A DNA stretch of 9,729 nucleotides. It comes from an uncultured Duganella sp. (GTDB taxonomy: Bacteria > Pseudomonadota > Gammaproteobacteria > Burkholderiales > Burkholderiaceae). The notes under the pieces were generated by a model that did not search any database, had not been told where the DNA came from, and saw only the letters and a list, made by a program, of their open reading frames with translations. A program made the position numbers and the translations under genes. The stretch covers positions 1 through 9,729 of the forward strand of contig CAMLSG010000204.1 in assembly GCA_946482635.1 (NCBI GenBank). The letters are read 5' to 3'. Below, in pieces: positions 333 through 9,729 of this stretch; the first letter of the stretch is position 1, and each line of letters opens with the position of its first letter.

Positions 333-923
333 TCAAGGGAGCGGCCTCGCTTTTATCATCGCACTCGCGCGCGCAAAATTTCCAGCGCCGAGGTGGTGCA
401 AGGTATGCAGGTCGGCATTATCCTCACGGAATGACCAGTGCCCGTTGGAAAATACACGTTCGTCAGCGGCAGCGGCCACCACTTCGGCGAAGCAGGTGTC
501 GTACGCCTGTTCGGCATGCGGTTCGGGGATAAGGCGGCATTCCAGCCAGGCGACACAGCCTGAGGCGATCAGCGGGGCGCCGGTGGCGCCGCCCGGACGG
601 GCAACGATGCCGAAGCGGTCGAACTTGTCGCCCTCGCGTCCGCTCGACGTACCGACCGCATAAGCCAGGTCGGCCGCAGCGGCGCCGGGGATGCAGACGG
701 CAAACACGCCGCTGGCAGCGGCAAGCTCGCGCGTAAAGGTGTTCTTGTCGATCACGACGGCTATACGGGGCGGCGTGAATTCCACCGGCATGGACCAGGC
801 GGCAGCCATGATATTGCGACGGCCGCCATGGGCGCTGGTGACCAGGACCGTCGGGCCGTGGTTGAGCAGGCGGCTGGCGTGCTCCAGCGCGACCGGCTTG
901 AAGTGTTCAAATTGCTGAGTCAT
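333..923 (-). CDS. Flavin reductase-like (DIM6/NTAB-type) FMN-binding protein
   Basis: A 196-residue protein with the split-barrel flavin reductase fold, which binds FMN/FAD and in characterised members uses NAD(P)H or serves as the reductase partner of a monooxygenase. The core segment TVLVTSAHGGRRNIMAAAWSM (25-45) followed by PPRIAVVIDK (51-60) and FAVCIP (74-79) is typical, as is the GTSSGREGDKFDRFGI stretch (91-106) before the C-terminal barrel strands. No signal peptide or membrane segment is seen, so it is probably cytosolic. The frame stays open upstream to 1268, but that part overlaps the lactonase gene antiphase. The ATG at 921-923 is chosen because the family N-terminus begins there. 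It overlaps the 3' end of the lactonase gene by 17 bp and has no good Shine-Dalgarno, which suggests translational coupling. It is the last gene of the operon. The substrate is unknown and a role in galactose breakdown is not obvious. Confidence 0.82.
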   Translation of the reverse strand: MTQQFEHFKPVALEHASRLLNHGPTVLVTSAHGGRRNIMAAAWSMPVEFTPPRIAVVIDKNTFTRELAAASGVFAVCIPGAAAADLAYAVGTSSGREGDKFDRFGIVARPGGATGAPLIASGCVAWLECRLIPEPHAEQAYDTCFAEVVAAAADERVFSNGHWSFREDNADLHTLHHLGAGNFARASAMIKARPLP

Positions 924-1785
924 CCCCCATTCTAGCGCCGAAGCGAATTTCCGGCAGGCCGACCGCGTCCGTGACGGGCATGCCGAACACGCCGCCCGCA
1001 AACCGTTCGTTTTCCAGCAAGTCCACCAGGGCGCTGGTGACAAAGAGCCGGTCCAGCTCCGGTCCGCCAAAGGCCGGACAGGTAGGCTGGCTGACCGGGA
1101 CGGCGATGGCACGCTCGATACTGCCGTCCGGCCGGTAGCGCACAATCCGTCCGGCACCCCATTCGGCGTTCCACAGGTAGCCGTCAGCATCGATTGCGGA
1201 ACCGTCGGGCTCACCGCAGCCCGGCGGCAAATGGGTGAAGATGCGCTCTCCCGCAACGTCGTCGCCATAGTCGCAGCAGCGGATCATGCCCGACAGGGAA
1301 TCGCAGAAATACATGGTGCCGCCATCCGGGCTGAAGCAGATGCTGTTGGCAATCGCCACCGGCGCCAGCGGCAACACTTCGAGCTGCAGGTTATGGCCGA
1401 GCCGGTAAAAGTGCCCGACCGGGGCCCGGCCGATTGCTTCGTTCATGGTGCCGAAGACGAAGCGGCCCTGGCGGTCGCAACGGCCATCGTTGATCCGCGT
1501 CCCAGGCACGTCGGCCTCGACGTCGACGATCGTCATCGCTTCGCCGGTGGCAAAATCAAACCAGGCCAGCCGGCTTTCCAGGCCGAGCAACAGGCGGCCT
1601 TCGGAAGCAGCCAGTGCGAACGACCCCAGCCGTTCGGGCATGTCCCATTGCCTGGTTTCGCCGCTGGAGAGGTGGTGACGCCACAATTTGCGGCCCAGGA
1701 TGTCGGTCCACAACAGCGATTGGGTGCGTTCGCACCACAGGATGCATTCGCCCAAGGCATTCTGGGCATCAACGATCAGCTCCAT
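907..1785 (-). CDS. SMP-30/regucalcin-type sugar lactonase, probably galactonolactonase
   Basis: A 292-residue six-bladed beta-propeller of the SMP-30/gluconolactonase/LRE family, cytosolic, which hydrolyses aldonolactones using a bound divalent metal. Visible family residues are the first metal ligand E13 (NALGE), the substrate-contact motif R97-I98-N99 with DG (TRINDGRCDRQGRFVFGTMNE), the ligand N147 (ANSICFSPDG) and the catalytic/metal-binding D194 (GEPDGSAIDADG). Length matches the family. The ATG at 1783-1785 has GGAGGT 5 nt upstream, and the gene follows galM by only 3 bp. Lying in a galactonate operon, its likely reaction is D-galactono-lactone to D-galactonate, the step before DgoD (inference). 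Arabinonolactone, fuconolactone or gluconolactone are alternatives that the sequence does not exclude. Confidence 0.9.
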   Translation of the reverse strand: MELIVDAQNALGECILWCERTQSLLWTDILGRKLWRHHLSSGETRQWDMPERLGSFALAASEGRLLLGLESRLAWFDFATGEAMTIVDVEADVPGTRINDGRCDRQGRFVFGTMNEAIGRAPVGHFYRLGHNLQLEVLPLAPVAIANSICFSPDGGTMYFCDSLSGMIRCCDYGDDVAGERIFTHLPPGCGEPDGSAIDADGYLWNAEWGAGRIVRYRPDGSIERAIAVPVSQPTCPAFGGPELDRLFVTSALVDLLENERFAGGVFGMPVTDAVGLPEIRFGARMGDDSAI

Positions 1786-1788
1786 GTT

Positions 1789-2838
1789 TCACCTCCACCT
1801 GTCGATGACGTAGCGTGTCGACGCACGGTAAGGCGCGCCGGGACGGCAAATAGCGTCGGGGAAAGCCGGACGGTTCGGGGCGTCGGGGAAATGCTGCGGT
1901 TCCAGGCACAGGCCTGCATGACGGGTAAAGTCGCGGCCCTTGCCGCCCAGTGTGCCGTCGAGGTAGTTGCCGCTATAAAACTGCAGGCCGGGGCAATCGG
2001 TATAGATGTCCATTTGGCGGCCGGACACCGGATCGGCGAGGCAGGCATGGGGTCCCGGCCCGGGTGCCAGCACAAAATTGTGGTCAAAGCCACGCGCCAG
2101 TGCAAGTTGCGGATCCGGCTGCGCCAGCGAATTGCCGATGCGCCGTTTCAGGCGGAAGTCGAAAGGGCCTCCGGCTACCGCCCGCAACTCACCGTCCGGC
2201 ACCAGGTCCGGCCGCACCGGCAGGAATTCCCCCGCATCGATACACAATTCATGGCCGAGGATATCGCCCTCCCCGGCCAGGTTGAAATAGCTGTGCTGGC
2301 TTATGCTGACAGGCGTCGGCTGGTCCGCCACCGCCTGGTAAATGCAGCGCAGCTCGCCAGTGACCGACAATTCGTAGGTCACCATGACCAGCAGGTTGCC
2401 GGGATAGCCTTCTTCGCCATCCCGGCTGAGCCGGCACAGGCTGAGGCGTGCCGCCTCGTTGTCGGTGCTCGCATAGCCCTGCCAGCAATGCTTGTGGAAG
2501 CCCCGTCGGCCGCCGTGCAGGTGGTTTTCGCCTTCGTTCTGCGTCAACTGGACAATTCGGCCATCGCGTTCGAAGCGTCCATGGCCGATCCGGTTGGCGA
2601 AGCGCCCCACCAGTGCACCGAAATAGGCCGTATCCCGTTCGTAATCGAGCAAGGTGTCAAAGCCCAGCACGAAATCGACCGGCGCACCATAGCGCGCGAG
2701 CACGCGCCAGCTGCGAATGATGCAACCATAGTCGAGCACCGACAACAGCATGCCCTGCCCGTTATCGAGCGTGAATTCCATGACTGGCTCGCCATTGGCG
2801 AGCTCCCCGAACAGGCGGCTGTCGACACAGGGCTTCAT
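1789..2838 (-). CDS. galM: Aldose 1-epimerase (galactose mutarotase)
   Basis: A 349-residue GalM that interconverts alpha and beta anomers of D-galactose and other aldohexoses; galactose dehydrogenases generally act on the beta form. Family signatures appear in order: GRFANRI (78-84, substrate Arg), NHLHGG (105-110, catalytic-site His108), HSYFNLAG (182-189, general acid His182), FDHNFVL (251-257, Asp252) and CLEPQHFPDAPN (311-322, general base Glu313). All key residues are present and the length is typical. No signal peptide is seen, so it is cytosolic. The ATG at 2836-2838 overlaps the dgoA stop in an ATGA arrangement and has no clear Shine-Dalgarno, so translation is probably coupled to dgoA. 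It likely supplies beta-galactose to the oxidative galactose route encoded around it. Confidence 0.95.
   Translation of the reverse strand: MKPCVDSRLFGELANGEPVMEFTLDNGQGMLLSVLDYGCIIRSWRVLARYGAPVDFVLGFDTLLDYERDTAYFGALVGRFANRIGHGRFERDGRIVQLTQNEGENHLHGGRRGFHKHCWQGYASTDNEAARLSLCRLSRDGEEGYPGNLLVMVTYELSVTGELRCIYQAVADQPTPVSISQHSYFNLAGEGDILGHELCIDAGEFLPVRPDLVPDGELRAVAGGPFDFRLKRRIGNSLAQPDPQLALARGFDHNFVLAPGPGPHACLADPVSGRQMDIYTDCPGLQFYSGNYLDGTLGGKGRDFTRHAGLCLEPQHFPDAPNRPAFPDAICRPGAPYRASTRYVIDRWR
1791..1796 (-). promoter_or_regulatory. Ribosome binding site of the lactonase gene
   Basis: GGAGGT on the minus strand, 5 nt before the ATG at 1783-1785. It overlaps the galM stop codon (1789-1791) and the codon before it, so this signal sits inside the upstream gene. 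Confidence 0.8.
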
Positions 2839-3452
2839 CGGGCGCGCCAGGCGGCGAGCAGTTCGCGCGCCCTCGCCTCCAGGTCAGGCAAGGCGATACC
2901 TGGTTCATACAAGCGGCCGCCAATGCCAAAGCCGTCGGCGCCGGCGCGCACCCATTCGTGCAGGTTGCCAGCACTGACGCCGCCTACTGGCCATATCCTG
3001 GCCGACGGCGGCAGGATGGTCTTGACGCTGCGCAGCCCGCTCGGCCCAAGCGTTTCGGCCGGGAACCACTTGATCGCGTCGGCGCCGGCCGCCAGTGCTG
3101 CCAGCGCTTCGGTTGGCGTGGCTACGCCCGGCACCGTCAGCATGCCCAGCTCGCGCGCACGCTGCATGACCGCCGGATCGAAATTCGGCGCCACCATGAC
3201 GCGGCCTCCCGCGGCATGTACTGCCTCCACGTCGGAAACGCTGGTCATGGTGCCGCCGCCGACCAGTGCATCGGCTGGCTTGATGCTGTCCAGCACGCGG
3301 ATACACTCCAGCGCCCCGGGCCGGTTCAGCGGCACCTCCAGGATGCGGAATCCGGCCGAAAACAATGCAGCAGCCACCGCCGGCGCCTCGGCTTCGGTCA
3401 AGCCGCGCAGAATGGCAACCATGGGTGGCTGGAAATCGTCGATTGCGCTCAT
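2835..3452 (-). CDS. dgoA: 2-dehydro-3-deoxy-6-phosphogalactonate (KDPGal) aldolase
   Basis: A 205-residue class I aldolase of the KDPG/KHG family, the same length as E. coli DgoA. It cleaves KDPGal to pyruvate and D-glyceraldehyde 3-phosphate in the cytosol. Visible are AILRG with Arg16, the catalytic Glu39 in LEVPLNRP, GGGTMTS (65-71), the Schiff-base Lys128 in DAIKWFPAE, and the phosphate-binding PVGGVSAGNL (155-164) and GIGGRLY (176-182). PLN after the Glu resembles DgoA rather than Eda. The ATG at 3450-3452 shares one base with the dgoK stop (TGATG) and has GGAGG 7 nt upstream. Two core motifs vary slightly from E. coli: GGGT for GAGT and KWFP for KIFP. KDPG (Eda-like) activity is an alternative, but dgoK and dgoD next door support KDPGal. 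Confidence 0.93.
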   Translation of the reverse strand: MSAIDDFQPPMVAILRGLTEAEAPAVAAALFSAGFRILEVPLNRPGALECIRVLDSIKPADALVGGGTMTSVSDVEAVHAAGGRVMVAPNFDPAVMQRARELGMLTVPGVATPTEALAALAAGADAIKWFPAETLGPSGLRSVKTILPPSARIWPVGGVSAGNLHEWVRAGADGFGIGGRLYEPGIALPDLEARARELLAAWRAR

Positions 3453-4354
3453 CAGATCGCCTCCATGAAGCGGGACAGGGCCGCGCAGTAAGCTTGGTCC
3501 GGGTCAATCAACTCCGTCGCATAGCCGAGCATCTGCGCGACCTCACGGTATGGCGCGGTCAGCTCATGCGACGCGATCAGGCGCAGCACCGGCAAGCTGC
3601 CCGCAGCCGGTGACGACTCGTCGCGCCGGGCCGCGAACTCGGTGCCGATCAGCAGGCCGCTCACATAGGAGCGCGTTTCTCCGGCGTCCGACTCCCCCGC
3701 CACCACGCGTGCCCGCGCTTCAAACAGAGTATGGCTCAGGGCTTCGGCGCTTTGCGCACGGTTGGCGCCGGCCCGCAAGGCGTCGGCGTCGGCCTTGCCC
3801 TCGGCCATCAGCGCTGCCAGCGTCCCCGACGCGCGCAAGGATGCGTACAACTCGCCGGTGATGAAAGTGGTCAGGCGGGCAATCGCTCCGTTGGCCACTT
3901 CCACCCATTTGCTGTGCGTCCCAGGCAGCACGTAACAACCGTCGCCGTGCTTGAGCAGATGCGCCCCGAGCAGCTGGGTTTCCTCGCCGCGCATGACGTC
4001 GATGCTGCCATGTTCGCGGTAGCAGTAGCCTGGCACAATGAAGCAGCCTGGCGCGCCGCTGACCGGCACCAGCGTCTCCGGCAAGCGATCCAGCGGAACG
4101 CTGCTATCGAGGTACGCGACTTCCTGCCATCCCTGCGCACTGCCCACCATGCCGGACATGACCACCGGCACCAGCGCATCCAGATCGAGCTGCTGCCGCA
4201 GCGCTTGCAATGCCTCTGCAAAATGGCCCTGGGCAGCCAGCGCGCCCAGGGCGTCTTCATGCTTGCGCAGGCACGCGCCCTCGGCGCCAATTACATAGGC
4301 ACGGCGGTTGCTCGTACCCCAGTCGATGCCGAGCAGGCAGGCCGGCGCTACCAT
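3452..4354 (-). CDS. dgoK: 2-dehydro-3-deoxygalactonokinase
   Basis: A 300-residue sugar kinase of the DgoK family (ASKHA fold), which phosphorylates 2-keto-3-deoxy-D-galactonate with ATP to KDPGal. Signature segments are the phosphate-1 loop [13 protein letters not shown] (8-20), [16 protein letters not shown] (67-82), [24 protein letters not shown] (107-130, conserved RGEE) and [11 protein letters not shown] (143-153). A late [20 protein letters not shown] segment fits the C-terminal ATPase lobe. The ATG at 4352-4354 is preferred over a GTG at 4382-4384, because known DgoK proteins start just before the IDWGT loop. The chosen start overlaps the dgoD stop by 7 bp and lacks a good Shine-Dalgarno, so translation is probably coupled to dgoD. 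The protein is cytosolic and the family call is secure. Confidence 0.95.
3460..3464 (-). promoter_or_regulatory. Ribosome binding site of dgoA
   Basis: GGAGG on the minus strand, 7 nt before the ATG at 3450-3452. It lies inside the last codons of dgoK and supports the dgoA start. Confidence 0.8.
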
Positions 4355-5496
4355 TCCGCCACGCTGCCATCGGCATGCCGCCACAGCGGATTGCGCCAGT
4401 CGGGCGCGGCGCGGCTGGCTTCGATGACCCGTTCTTCGTTGATGTCCACTCCCAGCCCCGGCAGGGGCAAGGGCTCGATATAGCCGCCCTCCATGCGGAA
4501 GTCTTCCGCGTTATGGACGTAATCGAGCAGTTCCGCGCCGGTGTTGTAGTGGATCCCCATGCTCTGTTCCTGCAGCACGGCGTTGTAGGAGACAAAGTCC
4601 ACCTGCAGGCACGCCGCCAGTGCCACCGGGCCCAGCGGGCAATGCGGCGCCAGGGTCACGTCGTACGCTTCCGCCATTGCGGCAATGCGCAGGCATTCGC
4701 TGATGCCGCCGGCATGAGACAGGTCCGGCTGCAGGATCGCCAGCCCGCCCTGCTCCAGTACACGCTTGAATTCGAAGCGCGAGAACATGCGTTCCCCGGC
4801 CGCCAGCGGGATGCTGGTCATGTCGGACAGCCGCCGGTAGTATTCGGACTGCTCCGCCAGCACGGGTTCCTCGACGAACAGCGGCCGGTATGGTTCGAGC
4901 GCCCGCAGCAGGGGCTTGGCCATCGGCCAGGCGACGCGGCCGTGGAAGTCGATGCCGAACTCGATGTCATAGCCGAACGCGGAGCGGATGCCGGCAATGC
5001 GTTCAACGGCCGCGTCCACCGCTGTCGCGCAATCAAGCATCGCCATTTCCTCCGTGCCGTTCATCTTGAAGGTATTCAGCCCGATGTCGCGCAAGGTCTG
5101 GATCCCCGCCACCACTTCGGCCGGGCGGTCGCCGCCCACCCAGCTATAGATCTTCATGCGGTCGCGCACGCGGCCGCCGAGCAGCTGGTACACCGGCACG
5201 CCAAGCGCCTTGCCCTTGATGTCCCAAAGGGCCTGGTCGATGCCGGCGATCGCGCTCATGAACACCGCGCCGCCGCGGTAAAAGCCGCCGCGGTACATGG
5301 CTTGCCACAGGTCGCTGATCTGGGCCGGATCGCGCCCGACCAGCAGCTCGCCCAATTCGTGCACGGCCGCCTCCACGGTCCGGGCCCGGCCTTCGATCAC
5401 CGGCTCGCCCCAGCCGCTGACGCCCTCGTCCGTTTCGATCTTGAGGAACATCCAGCGCGGCGGCACGCGGTAAGTGCTCAGTTGTGTGATCTTCAT
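4348..5496 (-). CDS. dgoD: D-galactonate dehydratase
   Basis: A 382-residue enzyme of the enolase superfamily that dehydrates D-galactonate to 2-keto-3-deoxy-D-galactonate with Mg2+. From memory it is colinear with E. coli DgoD at the same length and with near-identical stretches ([35 protein letters not shown]). The metal ligands fall at the expected positions: Asp183 (GIDFHGRV), Glu209 (FVEEPVL) and Glu235 (AAGERMF). The catalytic His185 and His285 (APHCPLGP) are also present. The C-terminus [18 protein letters not shown] is the DgoD-type ending. The frame is open upstream to 6369, but residues before MKITQLS are shadow sequence, so the ATG at 5494-5496 is chosen. The gene lies 2 bp after the fusion gene stop and its Shine-Dalgarno is weak (AAGG, 10 nt away). 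This is the best-supported functional call in the window. Confidence 0.98.
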
Positions 5497-5498
5497 GG

Positions 5499-6908
5499 TC
5501 AGGAAGCCTTCGGCGCCGCCTGGCTGCAGTGGCGCGCCACTTGTTCCGCCGCGCGCTTGCCGGCCAGGAAAGCGTGGTCGGAGTTGTAGTATTCCCACTC
5601 GCTGTAGCGGCCCGCCAGCAGGATATCGTGCTGCGCCAGCCACTCGCGCACGATGCCGACGTTGCGCGCGCGCTGGTGGTCGTAGACGACGTAAGCGACA
5701 GGCATGTCGACCTGGTTGGCCACCAGCACTTGATCGTCCTCGCGCATGAAGCCGACCCGGATCGCGTCGCTGATGCAGCGCTGGACCAGGGCGTCGCCGT
5801 CGAGCGGGAGCGGCTTCCACGGCGAATAGGAAATTTCGCAGGTGAAGCCGAAACCGCCGGGCGCGTTGCATTCGGGGCTGGCGTTGCCCTGCACGAAAAT
5901 GCGGTGGAAAATGCTGTCCTCGGGGTAGTAGATCCAGTGCTTGTCCGTGACAGCAGTGCGCGCGATGCCGATATTCACGCAGCGGATCGAAATGTGCCTC
6001 AGGCCGCGCGCCGCCTCGCGCACTTCGGGTGGCGCTGCCGTGCCGATCAGCTTGACCAGCTCCGGCAAGGGCATGGTGCTGACCAGGTTGCCGTACTTGA
6101 AGCGCCGCCCATCGGCCAGCGCGACCACATGTTCCTCCGGCAGCACCTGCGCCACCTCCGCCTTCAGCTCCACCTTGCCGCGGATCAGCGGCAGGAAGCC
6201 GTTCATCAGGGCCTGGAAGCCGCCGCGGCGCGGATAGCCGAAGCGCGCGTTCGGACCCATCGGCCGCGCCACCGGGCGCAAGGCGCCGTCGATAATCTCC
6301 GACAGGTCCGGCAAGGGCACTCGCCCTCCGAGCCAGGAGGTTTCCATTTCGCCCAGGGGGACCGTCCACAGCTTGCGGTTGTAAGGGATGGCAAAATGCT
6401 TTGCGATCCCTTTGCCCCAGACCTTGTAAATGAAGTCTTCAAAGCTCTGGGTTTCGGCCGCCCGCGCTTGCGGTCCGGCAGTGGCGACATCGGTTGTGCC
6501 ATCGGCGCAGCAATCCCCAACCTGCTGGCTGGCACAGGCTGGCGCCACGCTGGTCAGGCCATAGCGGGCTTCGATCGCCCCCAGGATGCACTCCTTGATC
6601 ACGTCCGGCGGCAGGCCATACAGGGCGCCCTGGAAAGGATAGCGGGTGTACACGCCTTTGCTGTGGACCCAGGCTTCGCGCATCTGCCAGTGCTGGTTAT
6701 CGCCCAGCAGCTTGTCGTACAGCTCCAGTACATAGGGATCGTTGGAGAACATGATGTGGCCGGCATGATCGAAAGTGAAGCCGCCGTCCTGGATTGAGCG
6801 GCACCAGCCGCCAACGGTTTCATTGCGCTCCAGCAGCAGGTTATCGGCGCCCACGTGGTAGGCTGCCGACAGGCCGGTCGGGCCACCGCCAATCACGATG
6901 CTGCCGTA
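5499..6908 (-). other. Unit 3 of the fusion: FAD oxidoreductase of the UDP-galactopyranose mutase / amine oxidase type
   Basis: Residues 789-1257. The dinucleotide-binding signature [16 protein letters not shown] (Gly795, Gly797, Gly800) is followed by [14 protein letters not shown] and [14 protein letters not shown], as in UDP-galactopyranose mutase and protoporphyrinogen oxidase-like proteins of polysaccharide clusters. The middle part includes [23 protein letters not shown] and [15 protein letters not shown], and the C-terminal segment [22 protein letters not shown] resembles the FAD-closing strand and helix of mutases. If it is a mutase it would make UDP-galactofuranose. I could not match the active-site residues of Glf with confidence, so only a UGM-like flavoprotein is claimed. 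A 35-40-residue Cys-containing insert lies within it. Confidence 0.78.
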
Positions 6909-9272
6909 CGATTGCCCGCTGGACGAGCCGCGCAGGGGATTCACCTTGCCCGCCGCGCCGGTGGCGGCGGCTTCAGGCGAGGCGCCTTTGCCGGCCAGGC
7001 GCGCAGCCTTGCCGCCTGGCGGTGTCTGGTCGATCAGTTCATGCATGCGGTCTGCTGTCGCGTCCCACGAGGTGCGGGCCACCACTTCGCGCATGGCTGC
7101 CGCCATCGCGGCGGTTTCTTCAGGCGTCTGCGCCAGCGCCGCTTCGCAATGGCAGATGAACTCGTTGTGTTCATGGCCAATCGCCACAATGTCGCCATAC
7201 GGCTGCTCGACGTCGCGGATCGCCGTGCTGACGATAGGCAGTTCCGCCGCCATGTATTCCAGCACCTTGGTCGGGCTGATGAAACGGGTCGCTTCATTGA
7301 GCGCAAAGGGCAGCAGGCAGACGTCCCAGCCGGCCAGGAATTGCGGCAGCGCCTTGTAGGATTGCTGGCCCAGGTAGTGCACGTTTTGCCGCTGCGGCAG
7401 CGAAGCCGGATCGATCTTCACCACTGGGCCCACCAGCACCACCTGCCATTCGGGATGGGCGTCGGCGATATCGGCAATCAGCTCGGCGTCGAAGCGCTCG
7501 TCGATGACGCCGAAGAAGCCCAGGCGCGGCCGGGGAATGGACGTGTGCAGCGGGTGGCCGTTGCTGCGGTCCAGCGCCTGCTCAAAGTGCACAGCATCGA
7601 CGCTGCTCGGGAAGCAGTGCGCATTGTGGTGGCGTGAACGCTTGGCCTCATACAGGCTTGGCCCGCCGGTGAACACCAGGTCGGCAATGTTCAGCAAAGC
7701 CGTTTCACGTTGCAGCAGCTGCTTGGGGGGATTCCTGAATGCGCTCAGTTCGTCCATGCAGTCGTAAACGACCAGGGACGGATGCAGGGCCTGCAGCAGC
7801 GGCAGCGCCATCGGGGTGTAGAACCAGACCAGCACTTCCTCGCCTTCCGGCGCCAGGGCTGCAACCAGCGGCTGCAGCAGCGGGATCTGGTCATCGTGGA
7901 AACCGTGCGCCTGCACCGGCGTATGCGGCTGGCAGACCGTCAAATTCGGCGCTGGATGGGACATGACCATGCGCGCCTCCCCTTCCTCATACACCGGCTC
8001 CTCGACGAACACCACCTTGTAATACTTGGCCAGGCGGGTGAGCAGGTGCTGGGGACGCTGGAAGACGAAATCCCAGCGCAGGTGGCAAAAAACTATCAGC
8101 GTTTGCATGGCATTCTCCTTGGTTTCACTCAGGCTGTCGGTCAGCCGGATCGATTGCTGCAGGGCCGTGGCATAGGGCGCGACCAGGATGCGGGCCAGCG
8201 GGTCCGGCCCGTCGCGGTCCAGGTCCCACAAGCCGCTGTGGTGCCAGTGGTCGGCGTTTTCCCAGTCGGGCCGGTCGACGGCGGGATACAGGCAGATGCC
8301 GCACACTTCGGCGCCGCGCTCGCGCGCCATCATGCTTTGCTCGGCCATCTCGCGTATCCAGGTGCCGCGCCCGCTGCCGACATGGCTGGTTTCCGCCAGC
8401 AGCACCGGCCGGCCGTAGCGCTGGTGCAGCTCGACCAGGATGTCGGACAGCGGCCGGCGGCGCGGATCGTCCAGGTGCCACCACAGGCGCATATTGGTGC
8501 CGCTTTCCCACTGGTTGCTGTGGTAGTAGTTGCCGCCGACCAGGTCCAGGTAACGCGCATGGCCACCCAGCTCGGGCGCGACGCGGCCGCACAGCATGTC
8601 CAGCGCCTCAAACTGGGACGCCGTCCAGCCGGCGGCCTGCGCCGCCCAGTCCGGCCGGTCGTGCGGCGCGATGACGTGGATCAGCGGATCGCACTGGAAG
8701 AAGCGCGCGCCCGGGGTGATTTCGCGGATGGCATCGATGGCGGCGATGGAAGCGCGCACCAGCTGGCGCTTGCCAAGCTCCCCTGCCCGCTCGTGGTACA
8801 TGTTCAGGCAGCGGAACATGTGCACCGACAGGCCCCACGCCGTGAAGGACAGTTCGTTCATCGGCGAGTACACCGGCTCTTCGCCCAGCCAGGGCGCCAG
8901 GAAACGGGCACTGGCCTGGCAGAAGCGTACGAAGCGCGGCACAAAGTCGTCACTGTAAATGTCAACGTCTTCCGGCCAGCCGTAGTGGCAGAAAGTCCAG
9001 CAGCTTTGCAGGCCCAGGTCGCGCGCCGCTTCCAGCCGCGGCAGCAGTGGCGAGAAGTCGAACCGCCCGTCGCGCTCGACCAGGCGCCAGCCGATCGACT
9101 CGCGCACCGTGCGGATGCCGAACTGGGCCAGCAGTTCGTAGTCGGCCCGGGCCCGCTGCAGGTGGCCGGTGACCAGGTTCATGTCTTGCGGCTGCCCTGC
9201 ATGGTTCACGTGGTCGGCGCCCTCATAGCCGGCTTGCCAGAAAGTGGCGAAGGGGTGGCAGGCTGGATTCAT
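5499..9272 (-). CDS. Three-unit protein: GH-A glycoside hydrolase, GT-B glycosyltransferase, UDP-galactopyranose mutase-like FAD oxidoreductase
   Basis: One frame of 1257 codons without a stop. Residues 1-388 are a TIM-barrel hydrolase, 389-748 a GT-B transferase, 749-788 a small-residue-rich linker and 789-1257 an FAD oxidoreductase; each has its own entry. No signal peptide or membrane segment is seen, so the protein is probably cytosolic. The ATG at 9270-9272 follows the GH2 stop by 8 bp, with AGGTG 5 nt upstream. The combination suggests assembly or trimming of a galactose-type glycan (inference). The hydrolase/transferase junction holds an intact AAGGAG-N6-ATG (start at 8108), the normal layout of two separate genes, so a separate 869-residue transferase-oxidoreductase product is possible, either as well as or instead of the full fusion. 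The transferase/oxidoreductase join lacks any internal ATG or Shine-Dalgarno and looks like a real fusion. Sequencing error at the first junction cannot be excluded. Confidence 0.85.
6909..7028 (-). other. Interdomain linker between the glycosyltransferase and oxidoreductase units
   Basis: About 40 residues (749-788 of the fusion), starting [10 protein letters not shown] and rich in Ala, Gly, Ser, Pro and Lys, with no recognisable fold. There is no ATG within it; one GTG (KVNPL) lacks a Shine-Dalgarno. The composition is typical of a flexible tether between two folded units and argues that this join is a genuine fusion. Confidence 0.6.
7029..8108 (-). other. Unit 2 of the fusion: GT-B glycosyltransferase (GT4/TuaH-like)
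   Basis: Residues 389-748, a complete GT-B enzyme that would move a sugar from a nucleotide-sugar donor to a glycan acceptor at the cytosolic face. The N-terminus [23 protein letters not shown] is characteristic of a group of bacterial transferases that resemble TuaH. The second Rossmann lobe begins around [14 protein letters not shown]. The donor-site motif [20 protein letters not shown] contains the expected Glu (residue 672 of the fusion). Donor and acceptor cannot be read from sequence. With a mutase-like unit attached, a galactose or galactofuranose donor is possible but unproven. Confidence 0.82.
8109..9272 (-). other. Unit 1 of the fusion: clan GH-A glycoside hydrolase (GH1-like)
   Basis: Residues 1-388, about the size of a full TIM-barrel glycosidase. 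The early part ([11 protein letters not shown], then [20 protein letters not shown] and RFDFS) reads like the first barrel strands of GH1/GH5-type enzymes. The acid/base motif appears as YSPMNELSF (Asn139-Glu140) and a candidate nucleophile as LLAETSH (Glu294), so the retaining two-glutamate machinery seems intact. [12 protein letters not shown] (245-255) fits the strand before the nucleophile. The N-terminus [10 protein letters not shown] has no hydrophobic leader, so it would act in the cytosol. The exact family is not certain from reading alone; GH1-related is my best guess. The substrate is unknown, and the neighbours suggest a galactoside. Confidence 0.75.
8115..8120 (-). promoter_or_regulatory. 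Internal Shine-Dalgarno for a start at 8108 inside the fusion frame
   Basis: AAGGAG on the minus strand, 6 nt before the ATG at 8106-8108, which is exactly where the glycosyltransferase homology begins. The site is as strong as the fusA one. It implies that the glycosyltransferase was, or still is, translated from its own start even though the upstream hydrolase frame reads through. Confidence 0.7.
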
Positions 9273-9280
9273 CGGCGCAC

Positions 9281-9729
9281 CTACCGCACGTTGCGCGTCG
9301 CCGCGCTGATCAGTTCAAGCGGGATCTTGGGCGTGCGGTCGGCATTCAGCAAGCCGTTCGTTTCCTGGAAGGTGTCGGCGAACTGGGTGTAGCAGAAGCC
9401 GCTGAACATCATGGTTTCATTGACCACCTTCAGCAGGGAGCGGTAGTGCTCAAGGAAGGCTTCCGGCGTGTTCTGGCGCGAATAGCCCCAGGTGTGGTGC
9501 GCCGGCGCATTGGGGTCGAAGGCAATGCCGCCAAACTCCGTCAAGACGATCGGCTGGCCGCGGTGCGGGAAGCCGTCCAGCGTGAGGATGCGCCCGCCCG
9601 GCCGGCGCTGGTCGAACAGGGTGCGTACCGGATCGGTGACTTCATAGCGCTGGCGCACGCGTTCCGGGTCGGGATCGTAGTCGTGGATGCCGAGGATATC
9701 GGTGGCCGACGCCTCCCAGCCGTCGTTGC
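9281..9729 (-). CDS. Glycoside hydrolase family 2 enzyme, C-terminal part, cut by the window edge
   Basis: The last 148 residues of a GH2-type enzyme (beta-galactosidase / beta-glucuronidase group). The frame enters from the right edge as NDGWEASATDILGIHDYD, the region after the acid/base site, where GH2 TIM barrels carry a conserved HDYD-like segment. The likely nucleophile is the Glu of IVLTEFGGIAF, followed by the last barrel strands SGFCYTQFADTFQETNGLL and ADRTPKIP, all good GH2 features. The GTG at 9656-9658 is internal and not the start. The start, the sugar-binding domain and any signal peptide lie outside the window, so location cannot be judged. The gene ends 8 bp before the fusion gene and is probably in the same operon. 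A role in releasing galactose or glucuronate is inferred from family and context. Confidence 0.85.
   Translation of the reverse strand, partial: NDGWEASATDILGIHDYDPDPERVRQRYEVTDPVRTLFDQRRPGGRILTLDGFPHRGQPIVLTEFGGIAFDPNAPAHHTWGYSRQNTPEAFLEHYRSLLKVVNETMMFSGFCYTQFADTFQETNGLLNADRTPKIPLELISAATRNVR

Follow-up and report, generated by a model that had tools for sequence, protein, structure and literature searches.

The window analysed here, a stretch of 9,729 nucleotides from an uncultured Duganella sp. (GenBank assembly GCA_946482635.1, contig CAMLSG010000204.1), carries on its minus strand a stop-free frame at positions 5499–9272 that codes for 1257 residues and joins three catalytic units: a glycosidase domain with the fold of glycoside hydrolase (GH) family 1, a glycosyltransferase (GT) domain of the GT4 type, and a eukaryotic-type UDP-galactopyranose mutase (UGM) domain. 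Its features are as follows.

5499..9272, minus strand: GH1-like / GT4 / eukaryotic-type UGM fusion gene, 1257 aa
8109..9272, minus strand: GH1-fold glycosidase domain, residues 1–388
8853..8855, minus strand: E140, putative acid/base, role assigned from GH1 motifs
8391..8393, minus strand: E294, putative nucleophile, role assigned likewise
8115..8120, minus strand: internal Shine-Dalgarno sequence AAGGAG
8106..8108, minus strand: in-frame internal ATG at residue 389, a likely second start yielding GT-UGM alone (869 aa)
6963..8108, minus strand: GT4-type glycosyltransferase domain, residues 389–770, TuaH-like
7257..7259, minus strand: E672 of the GT domain
5502..6917, minus strand: eukaryotic-type UGM domain, residues 786–1257
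6756..6758, 6321..6323, 5901..5903 and 5589..5591, minus strand: UGM-domain residues H839, R984, R1124 and Y1228, respectively
6507..6512, minus strand: vicinal Cys-Cys, residues 921–922, in a low-confidence insertion of the UGM domain

The fusion frame is real and conserved among relatives. In a homologue search with the whole fusion, 119 of the 120 listed proteins (1240–1354 aa, 63–91% identity) span 96–100% of the query; their named sources include Pseudoduganella, Rugamonas, Duganella, Janthinobacterium, Massilia, Alteromonas, Shewanella and Rheinheimera, and they bear vague names such as "NAD(P)-binding protein" or "protoporphyrinogen oxidase". The first-pass annotation of this DNA, which proposed that three catalytic units share one frame with their key residues intact, is thereby confirmed: the listed homologues are full-length, and E140 and E294 of the GH unit, E672 of the GT unit and the FAD-motif glycines G795, G797 and G800 are conserved in relatives. 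It also stated that no characterised protein has this architecture, and none was found in the open-licence literature searched. Each unit is of a known kind; for their combination, the eukaryotic-type UGM in such a setting and the internal start, we found no description in that literature, judged mostly from titles and the beginnings of abstracts, which does not prove absence.

The C-terminal domain very likely forms UDP-galactofuranose (UDP-Galf), given its kinship and its predicted substrate site. All 14 matches of a PDB sequence search at E 0.001 are eukaryotic UGMs (Aspergillus fumigatus, 3.5e-43; T. cruzi, 1e-37), and in a fold comparison the top 34 matches are eukaryotic UGM chains, with protoporphyrinogen oxidases ranking behind. 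According to the accessible part of PMC3624792, the A. fumigatus enzyme (AfUGM) binds UDP-galactopyranose (UDP-Galp) through Y104, F158, F106, Q107, R182, Y317, R327, Y419, Y453, N207, N457, N163 and W167; when these are mapped by alignment, the window protein has the same residue at all 13 positions listed there, and none of the 13 varies in the 25 relatives compared. R182, R327 and H63 of AfUGM correspond to R984, R1124 and H839, and the available text of PMC3893270 describes the two arginines as important, and H63 as contributing, to the function of UgmA in vivo. The FAD GxGxxG motif and the His-loop histidine (G795, G797, G800 and H839) are invariant in 25/25 rows. Among the FAD contacts (AfUGM numbering), T18, H63, V242 and R447 are identical, D38, S39, L46 and S461 differ, and G456 is unaligned. 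The His loop itself reads Ala-Gly-His (A837-G838-H839), and so does not have both glycines of the Gly-Gly-His loop that PMC3624792, in the part accessible, calls unique to eukaryotic UGMs; for this reason we class the domain as eukaryotic-type and not as a eukaryotic UGM proper. The canonical bacterial Glf model, PF03275, has no match in the window protein at E 0.001. The label "UGM-like" given in the first-pass annotation thus holds as to mutase kinship and can be sharpened, since the substrate site is that of a eukaryotic UGM at the 13 published positions available to us and a glf gene is usual where the domain is missing (see below).

The insertion that interrupts the UGM domain (approximately residues 906–940) is variable apart from a near-invariant CCxDG motif. 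Its vicinal Cys-Cys is present in 118/120 listed proteins from the fusion search, 120/120 from the UGM search and 26 of 27 GT-UGM rows, and is absent from the Gemmatimonadales UGMs of loci L075 and L076. UGM is active only in the reduced state, as stated in the accessible portion of PMC3624792, and one idea for the cysteine pair is therefore a redox switch.

A genome scan kept 79 related loci, a minimum for the number that exist, to which all counts of listed loci refer. They comprise 35 GH-GT-UGM frames, 30 GT-UGM, 4 GH-GT (one, L044, truncated by a contig end), 5 GT alone, and 5 GT-UGM with an adjoining separate GH gene, the latter in Acidobacteria, Methylobacter and Gallionella; L068, a GT-UGM frame, is likewise truncated. 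In L074–L076 the UGM has its own gene in the vicinity of the GT, and L076 encodes GT, UGM and GH consecutively. The first-pass annotation had considered that homologues might always be separate genes with a stop at the GH/GT junction. This is not what we found: GH and GT form one frame in 39 of the 79 listed loci, spanning Oxalobacteraceae, Enterobacterales, Nitrosomonadaceae and others with a junction of varying length, and GH lies next door in 5/79, while the remaining 35 have no GH either inside the GT frame or beside the GT. On a GT tree of 83 rows the layouts require 18 changes against a mean of 36 in shuffles, indicating that the units have been joined and split repeatedly. The GH unit is dispensable. 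A single 2.4-kb DNA query taken from the Citrobacter locus L059 gave no match in E. coli genomes.

Where the UGM domain is missing, canonical glf is usually present. On plasmids, a gene annotated as glf, either free-standing or joined to a GT, accompanies relatives of the GT and GH in Azospirillum, Skermanella, Phyllobacterium and Deinococcus, and the same arrangement is found in Comamonas, Sinorhizobium, Rhizobium and Mesorhizobium; all four plasmid genes tested (L080, L081, L083 and L084, from Azospirillum, Skermanella, Deinococcus and Comamonas) match PF03275 at E 1e-73 to 1e-84. A search for GLF in 70 genomes behind related loci (all but L002, L041, L044, L054, L068 and L074; 4 of 14 named control genomes gave matches) detected it in 6/6 genomes in which the domain is missing or decayed (L063, decayed; L065, L066, L071, L078 and L079) versus 9/64 with the domain, these 64 including L058, cut at a contig end, and L075 and L076, with UGM as a separate gene (Fisher test p 3.8e-5, kinship ignored). 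The losses fall in about four places on the GT tree: L063, L065, L066 with L071, and L078 with L079. The glf gene directly follows the GH-GT gene in L066 and L071 and lies outside the fetched flanks in L063 and L065. Two sister pairs differ in this respect: of two Variovorax loci, L065 is without the domain and has glf, while L064 has the domain and no glf (support 100/88); Azohydromonas L063 has a decayed domain and glf, while Rhizobacter L061 has the domain and no glf (support 98/71). In the Azohydromonas fusion (L063, 9971–13645), UGM matches are confined to the second half, and a stretch with several substrate residues is missing by eye.

An automatically drawn sample weighs more than these hand-followed loci. 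It comprises 116 genomes of the family to which the Janthinobacterium genome of L001 belongs, drawn from a larger group and neither named nor graded, with matches counted at E 1e-100 or better. GT was found in 43 and GLF in 26, and GLF occurs in 26/43 GT-positive versus 0/73 GT-negative genomes (Fisher 7e-15, kinship ignored). By layout, GLF accompanies none of the 8 full fusions, 14 of 22 GT-UGM genomes and 12 of 13 genomes with GT alone.

The GT domain matches PF13692, the Glycos_transf-1-type C-terminal domain, above the model cut-off (E 1.4e-9), and the NCBIfam TuaH model at E 5.9e-20 with 71.5 bits against a cut-off of 550. An EX7E motif is characteristic of GT4; here the second Glu, E672, is invariant, and the position eight residues earlier is Phe664.

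The N-terminal unit is, by prediction from sequence, a divergent GH1-fold glycosidase with an intact retaining-type Glu pair. Residues 1–388 have the GH1 (beta/alpha)8 fold; E140 and E294 are conserved in 50/50 rows and N139, the Asn before the acid/base, in 48/50. In the window copy, no match to the Pfam GH1 family, PF00232, is found at E 0.1 or better, nor has the GH part any other Pfam match; in the relative L046, PF00232 matches at E 7.7e-5, under its cut-off. The nucleophile context is ENG in typical GH1 enzymes and ETSH in the window domain.

One message probably yields both the full fusion and a hydrolase-free GT-UGM, a prediction based on translation signals at the GH/GT junction. In 40 fused proteins (the window and 39 loci), the junction start is ATG in 38 and GTG in two. 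Pairing with the anti-Shine-Dalgarno sequence has a median of -6.6 kcal/mol at the junction starts (n=40) versus -2.4 at 901 other in-frame ATGs, and -6 is reached at 24/40 versus 57/901 in the same genes; for each protein the strongest start between 14 codons upstream and 5 codons downstream of the junction was chosen, a selection that biases the comparison towards the junction, and the rows are related. Codon choice points in that direction too (33 of 40 below 0.5, with a median of 0.74 at 240 control ATGs; combined p 6e-4), with 3/40 individually at p<0.05 and the window alone at p 0.43. No Shine-Dalgarno signal is seen at the junction of L066. The internal start coincides with the beginning of some free-standing GT-UGM frames (L028, L030, L032 and L040).

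The fusion lies in a tight run of genes on the same strand, in which the GH2 gene stops 8 bases upstream of the fusion and the others follow downstream:

9281..9727, minus strand: final 148 codons and stop codon of a GH2 gene, furanosidase (galactofuranosidase) type
9527..9541 and 9374..9391, minus strand: GH2 motifs TEFGG and YTQFAD, respectively
4348..5496, minus strand: dgoD, galactonate dehydratase, its ATG 2 nt past the fusion stop
3452..4384, minus strand: dgoK, 2-keto-3-deoxy-galactonokinase
2835..3452, minus strand: dgoA, 2-dehydro-3-deoxy-6-phosphogalactonate aldolase
1789..2838, minus strand: galM-like galactose 1-epimerase
907..1785, minus strand: SMP-30/gluconolactonase-family protein, perhaps a galactonolactonase, a substrate suggested by its neighbours

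The GH2 gene upstream probably encodes a cytosolic beta-galactofuranosidase, which would release galactose for the galactonate genes, although an arabinofuranosidase may also fit this furanosidase-type sequence. A Rugamonas copy, 90% identical to the window's over the window part, matches in the PDB 7xyr (1.6e-100), 7sf2 (4e-78), 9j6n (3e-72) and 9j6m (1.5e-71), other GH2 structures following at 1e-27 or weaker; the window fragment alone matches 7xyr (1.3e-15) and 9j6n (0.0021). By sequence, the window motif YTQFAD lines up with the stretch of 7xyr and 9j6n that bears the Thr. Other GH2 enzymes carry Trp in that stretch. The Rugamonas copy retains the Asn-Glu pair (FNESWG). In the accessible text of PMC12243196 a Trp-to-Thr change at the -1 subsite is linked to a GH2 furanosidase group, and 7XYR itself is described as uncharacterised and as having lost the Asn-Glu motif; for Streptomyces JHA19, the available part of PMC4560423 reports a GH2 activity specific for Galf. 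A GH2 neighbour at about 57% identity or more occurs in the fetched flanks of at least 33 of the 79 listed loci, with two more at 31–34%. Since a furanosidase-type GH2 adjoins a furanose-making mutase, it is an independent pointer to galactofuranose.

The downstream genes suggest galactose breakdown via galactonate; no gene for galactose dehydrogenase, the enzyme that opens the route, was seen in the window. A galK cluster is found in 16/79 listed loci and a galT cluster in 11/79. A gene for an ABC transporter of the type of MsbA or glucan exporters, assigned from model matches under cut-offs in L080, directly follows in L005, L015, L064, L065, L080, L081 and L086. A rhizobial locus (L089, 2628–5867) encodes a 1079-residue fusion of GT4, Gfo-Idh-type oxidoreductase and Zn-alcohol-dehydrogenase-type units beside GT-glf and GT-GH genes, a further multi-domain protein that may belong to the same pathway; similar-sized genes occur in L088 and L090 (domains were tested in L089). 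The exporter-type gene and this nearby GT-oxidoreductase fusion favour a product that is made and sometimes exported.

Several further observations concern the surroundings of the fusion and its relatives. In the window, the galactonate run ends on its 3' side with a frame that has a Flavin_Reduct domain (333–1268), and beyond it, at the window edge, is the start of a gene with an EF-Tu-type GTP-binding domain. On Deinococcus plasmids (L083, 7752–10265; hits H44, H62, H64 and H66), the GH relative lies inside genes annotated as acyl-CoA dehydrogenase family protein, which may be another fusion or a wrong name. Genes of a cluster of about 730 aa (GH1-like and RmlD-like in L039, the member tested) are found near GH-less GT genes in L038, L039, L050, L057, L072 and L075. 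Beside fusion or GT-UGM genes in L010, L014, L019, L020 and L070, a second GT4 gene recurs together with a gene of some 268 aa that looks like an amidohydrolase on inspection and, in the member tested, has no NCBIfam match. Of 15 hand-picked plasmid regions, 6 (L082, L085, L089, L090, L092 and L093) hold stress genes (catalase, ferritin-like, DUF892, Ku/LigD) in the vicinity of members. An apparent GH2-GT-UGM fusion in L033 (a 1553-aa frame) was rejected, as its frame matched no GH2 structure at E 1e-20; the GH2 lies in the same DNA in another frame.

Based on these observations, we consider it probable that the fusion is a cytosolic galactofuranosyl-glycan enzyme that would make UDP-Galf, transfer Galf and trim or remodel the product. 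The C-terminal domain, with reduced FAD, would convert UDP-Galp to UDP-Galf, a step strongly supported by sequence; the adjacent GT4 domain would place galactofuranose from UDP-Galf on an acceptor, as the fusion and the co-occurrence with glf suggest; and the N-terminal domain may trim or transglycosylate the product or its core. The internal start would add a hydrolase-free GT-UGM from the same message, and the GH2 and downstream galactose genes could recycle the sugar. The galactofuranose theme of the first-pass annotation is likely to be correct, in view of the substrate site (as far as the published residues are available to us), the link to glf and the furanosidase-type GH2. That annotation's interpretation is supported in part: its cytosolic carrier and its editing of the product by the hydrolase are conjectures, and it did not mention the GH2 gene upstream, the downstream genes for galactose degradation or the internal Shine-Dalgarno sequence with its ATG. 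No claim is made for any particular acceptor or for a storage polymer, compatible solute or glycolipid, all of which were considered. Several points weigh against this reading. The Galf specificity of the GT rests on context, as that domain has no match to PDB sequences up to E 1. The GH unit is missing in many genomes, with a close GH (E<1e-60) anywhere in 8 of the 27 genomes behind GH-less loci. Displacement by glf is not strict, because the 14 of 22 GT-UGM genomes noted above also hold canonical GLF (6 of the 14 with an extra GT-only copy), one GT-only genome (G087) has no GLF, and Pantoea L013 has both the domain and GLF. Within the window, moreover, the downstream genes solely degrade galactose, which points to recycling or to breakdown alone.

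If the locus served breakdown alone, GH1 and GH2 would free galactose from imported oligosaccharides, the mutase would run in reverse to salvage UDP-Galf, and the GT would form an inducer or side product. The galactonate genes tightly following the fusion and the galK and galT clusters agree with this, but we regard it as improbable: in the loci and genomes found through the GT, the GT is retained while GH and UGM vary, the GT tracks the biosynthetic gene glf, and an exporter-type ABC gene directly follows in several members. The joining of GH to GT might instead be harmless, the separate GH and GT-UGM being the real products and the fused form having no role. This would account for the five loci with GH as a separate neighbour and for the translation signals, a Shine-Dalgarno sequence with a start, that most of the fused proteins examined have at the junction; it is about equally improbable, since GH and GT are fused in 39 listed loci across a variable-length junction in several lineages, and while the in-frame state of the 39 follows from selection, their number and spread do not. 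It is very unlikely that the FAD domain is a UGM relative with an altered reaction, for example the oxidation of a sugar or the conversion of a different nucleotide sugar. Identity to solved UGMs is only about 25%, NCBIfam matches are all under cut-off with "hypothetical protein" families the best, and the Cys-Cys insertion is present, yet all 13 published substrate residues available to us are retained and canonical glf fills the place of the domain in several lineages.

The galactofuranosyl-glycan reading can be extended, tentatively and with low confidence, to a self-contained make-and-break machine for a cytosolic galactofuranose glycan, in which one message yields a synthase carrying its own hydrolase or transglycosidase and, from the internal start, a hydrolase-free synthase, the neighbouring galactofuranosidase and galactose genes recycle the sugar, the glycan is a reserve or protective compound, and these bacteria are a home of eukaryotic-type UGM. 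If the proposed function is correct, many vaguely named proteins would be tied to galactofuranose biology, a family of GT4-type galactofuranosyltransferases would be predicted, and eukaryotic-type UGM would be placed in bacteria of several phyla (Pseudomonadota, Acidobacteriota, Planctomycetota and Gemmatimonadota). A single polypeptide would then supply its own UDP-Galf, a donor that the accessible part of PMC7278926 describes as costly and hard to obtain, in what would be a new packaging of the galactofuranose pathway. The internal start would also offer an experimentally accessible example of nested genes at the boundary between two domains.

Compared with known systems, the N-terminal domain resembles GH1 beta-glycosidases such as that of Thermus (1ug6), but is about 19% identical, shorter and without a Pfam GH1 match. 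The GT domain shares with TuaH and GT4 the Glyco_trans_1_4 domain and the retained C-terminal Glu; it scores far under the cut-off for TuaH, an enzyme of teichuronic acid synthesis, and differs in being fused to a UGM. The Streptomyces JHA19 beta-D-galactofuranosidase (GH2_18, 9j6m) and GH2_19 (7xyr) are the best PDB matches of the 90%-identical copy of the upstream gene, which by sequence alignment may also have Thr in the stretch where other GH2 have Trp; that gene is seen in the window only as its last 148 residues and its activity is predicted. Canonical Glf (PF03275) fills the UGM place in the Azospirillum, Skermanella, Comamonas and Deinococcus clusters, and the window protein is without PF03275. 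With A. fumigatus UgmA (3ute) and T. cruzi UGM (4dsg), the mutase domain shares the fold, the FAD motif, the His-loop histidine and the 13 substrate residues given in the accessible source, but it is bacterial, lies behind a GT in one frame, and has an AGH loop, some changed FAD contacts and a Cys-Cys insertion.

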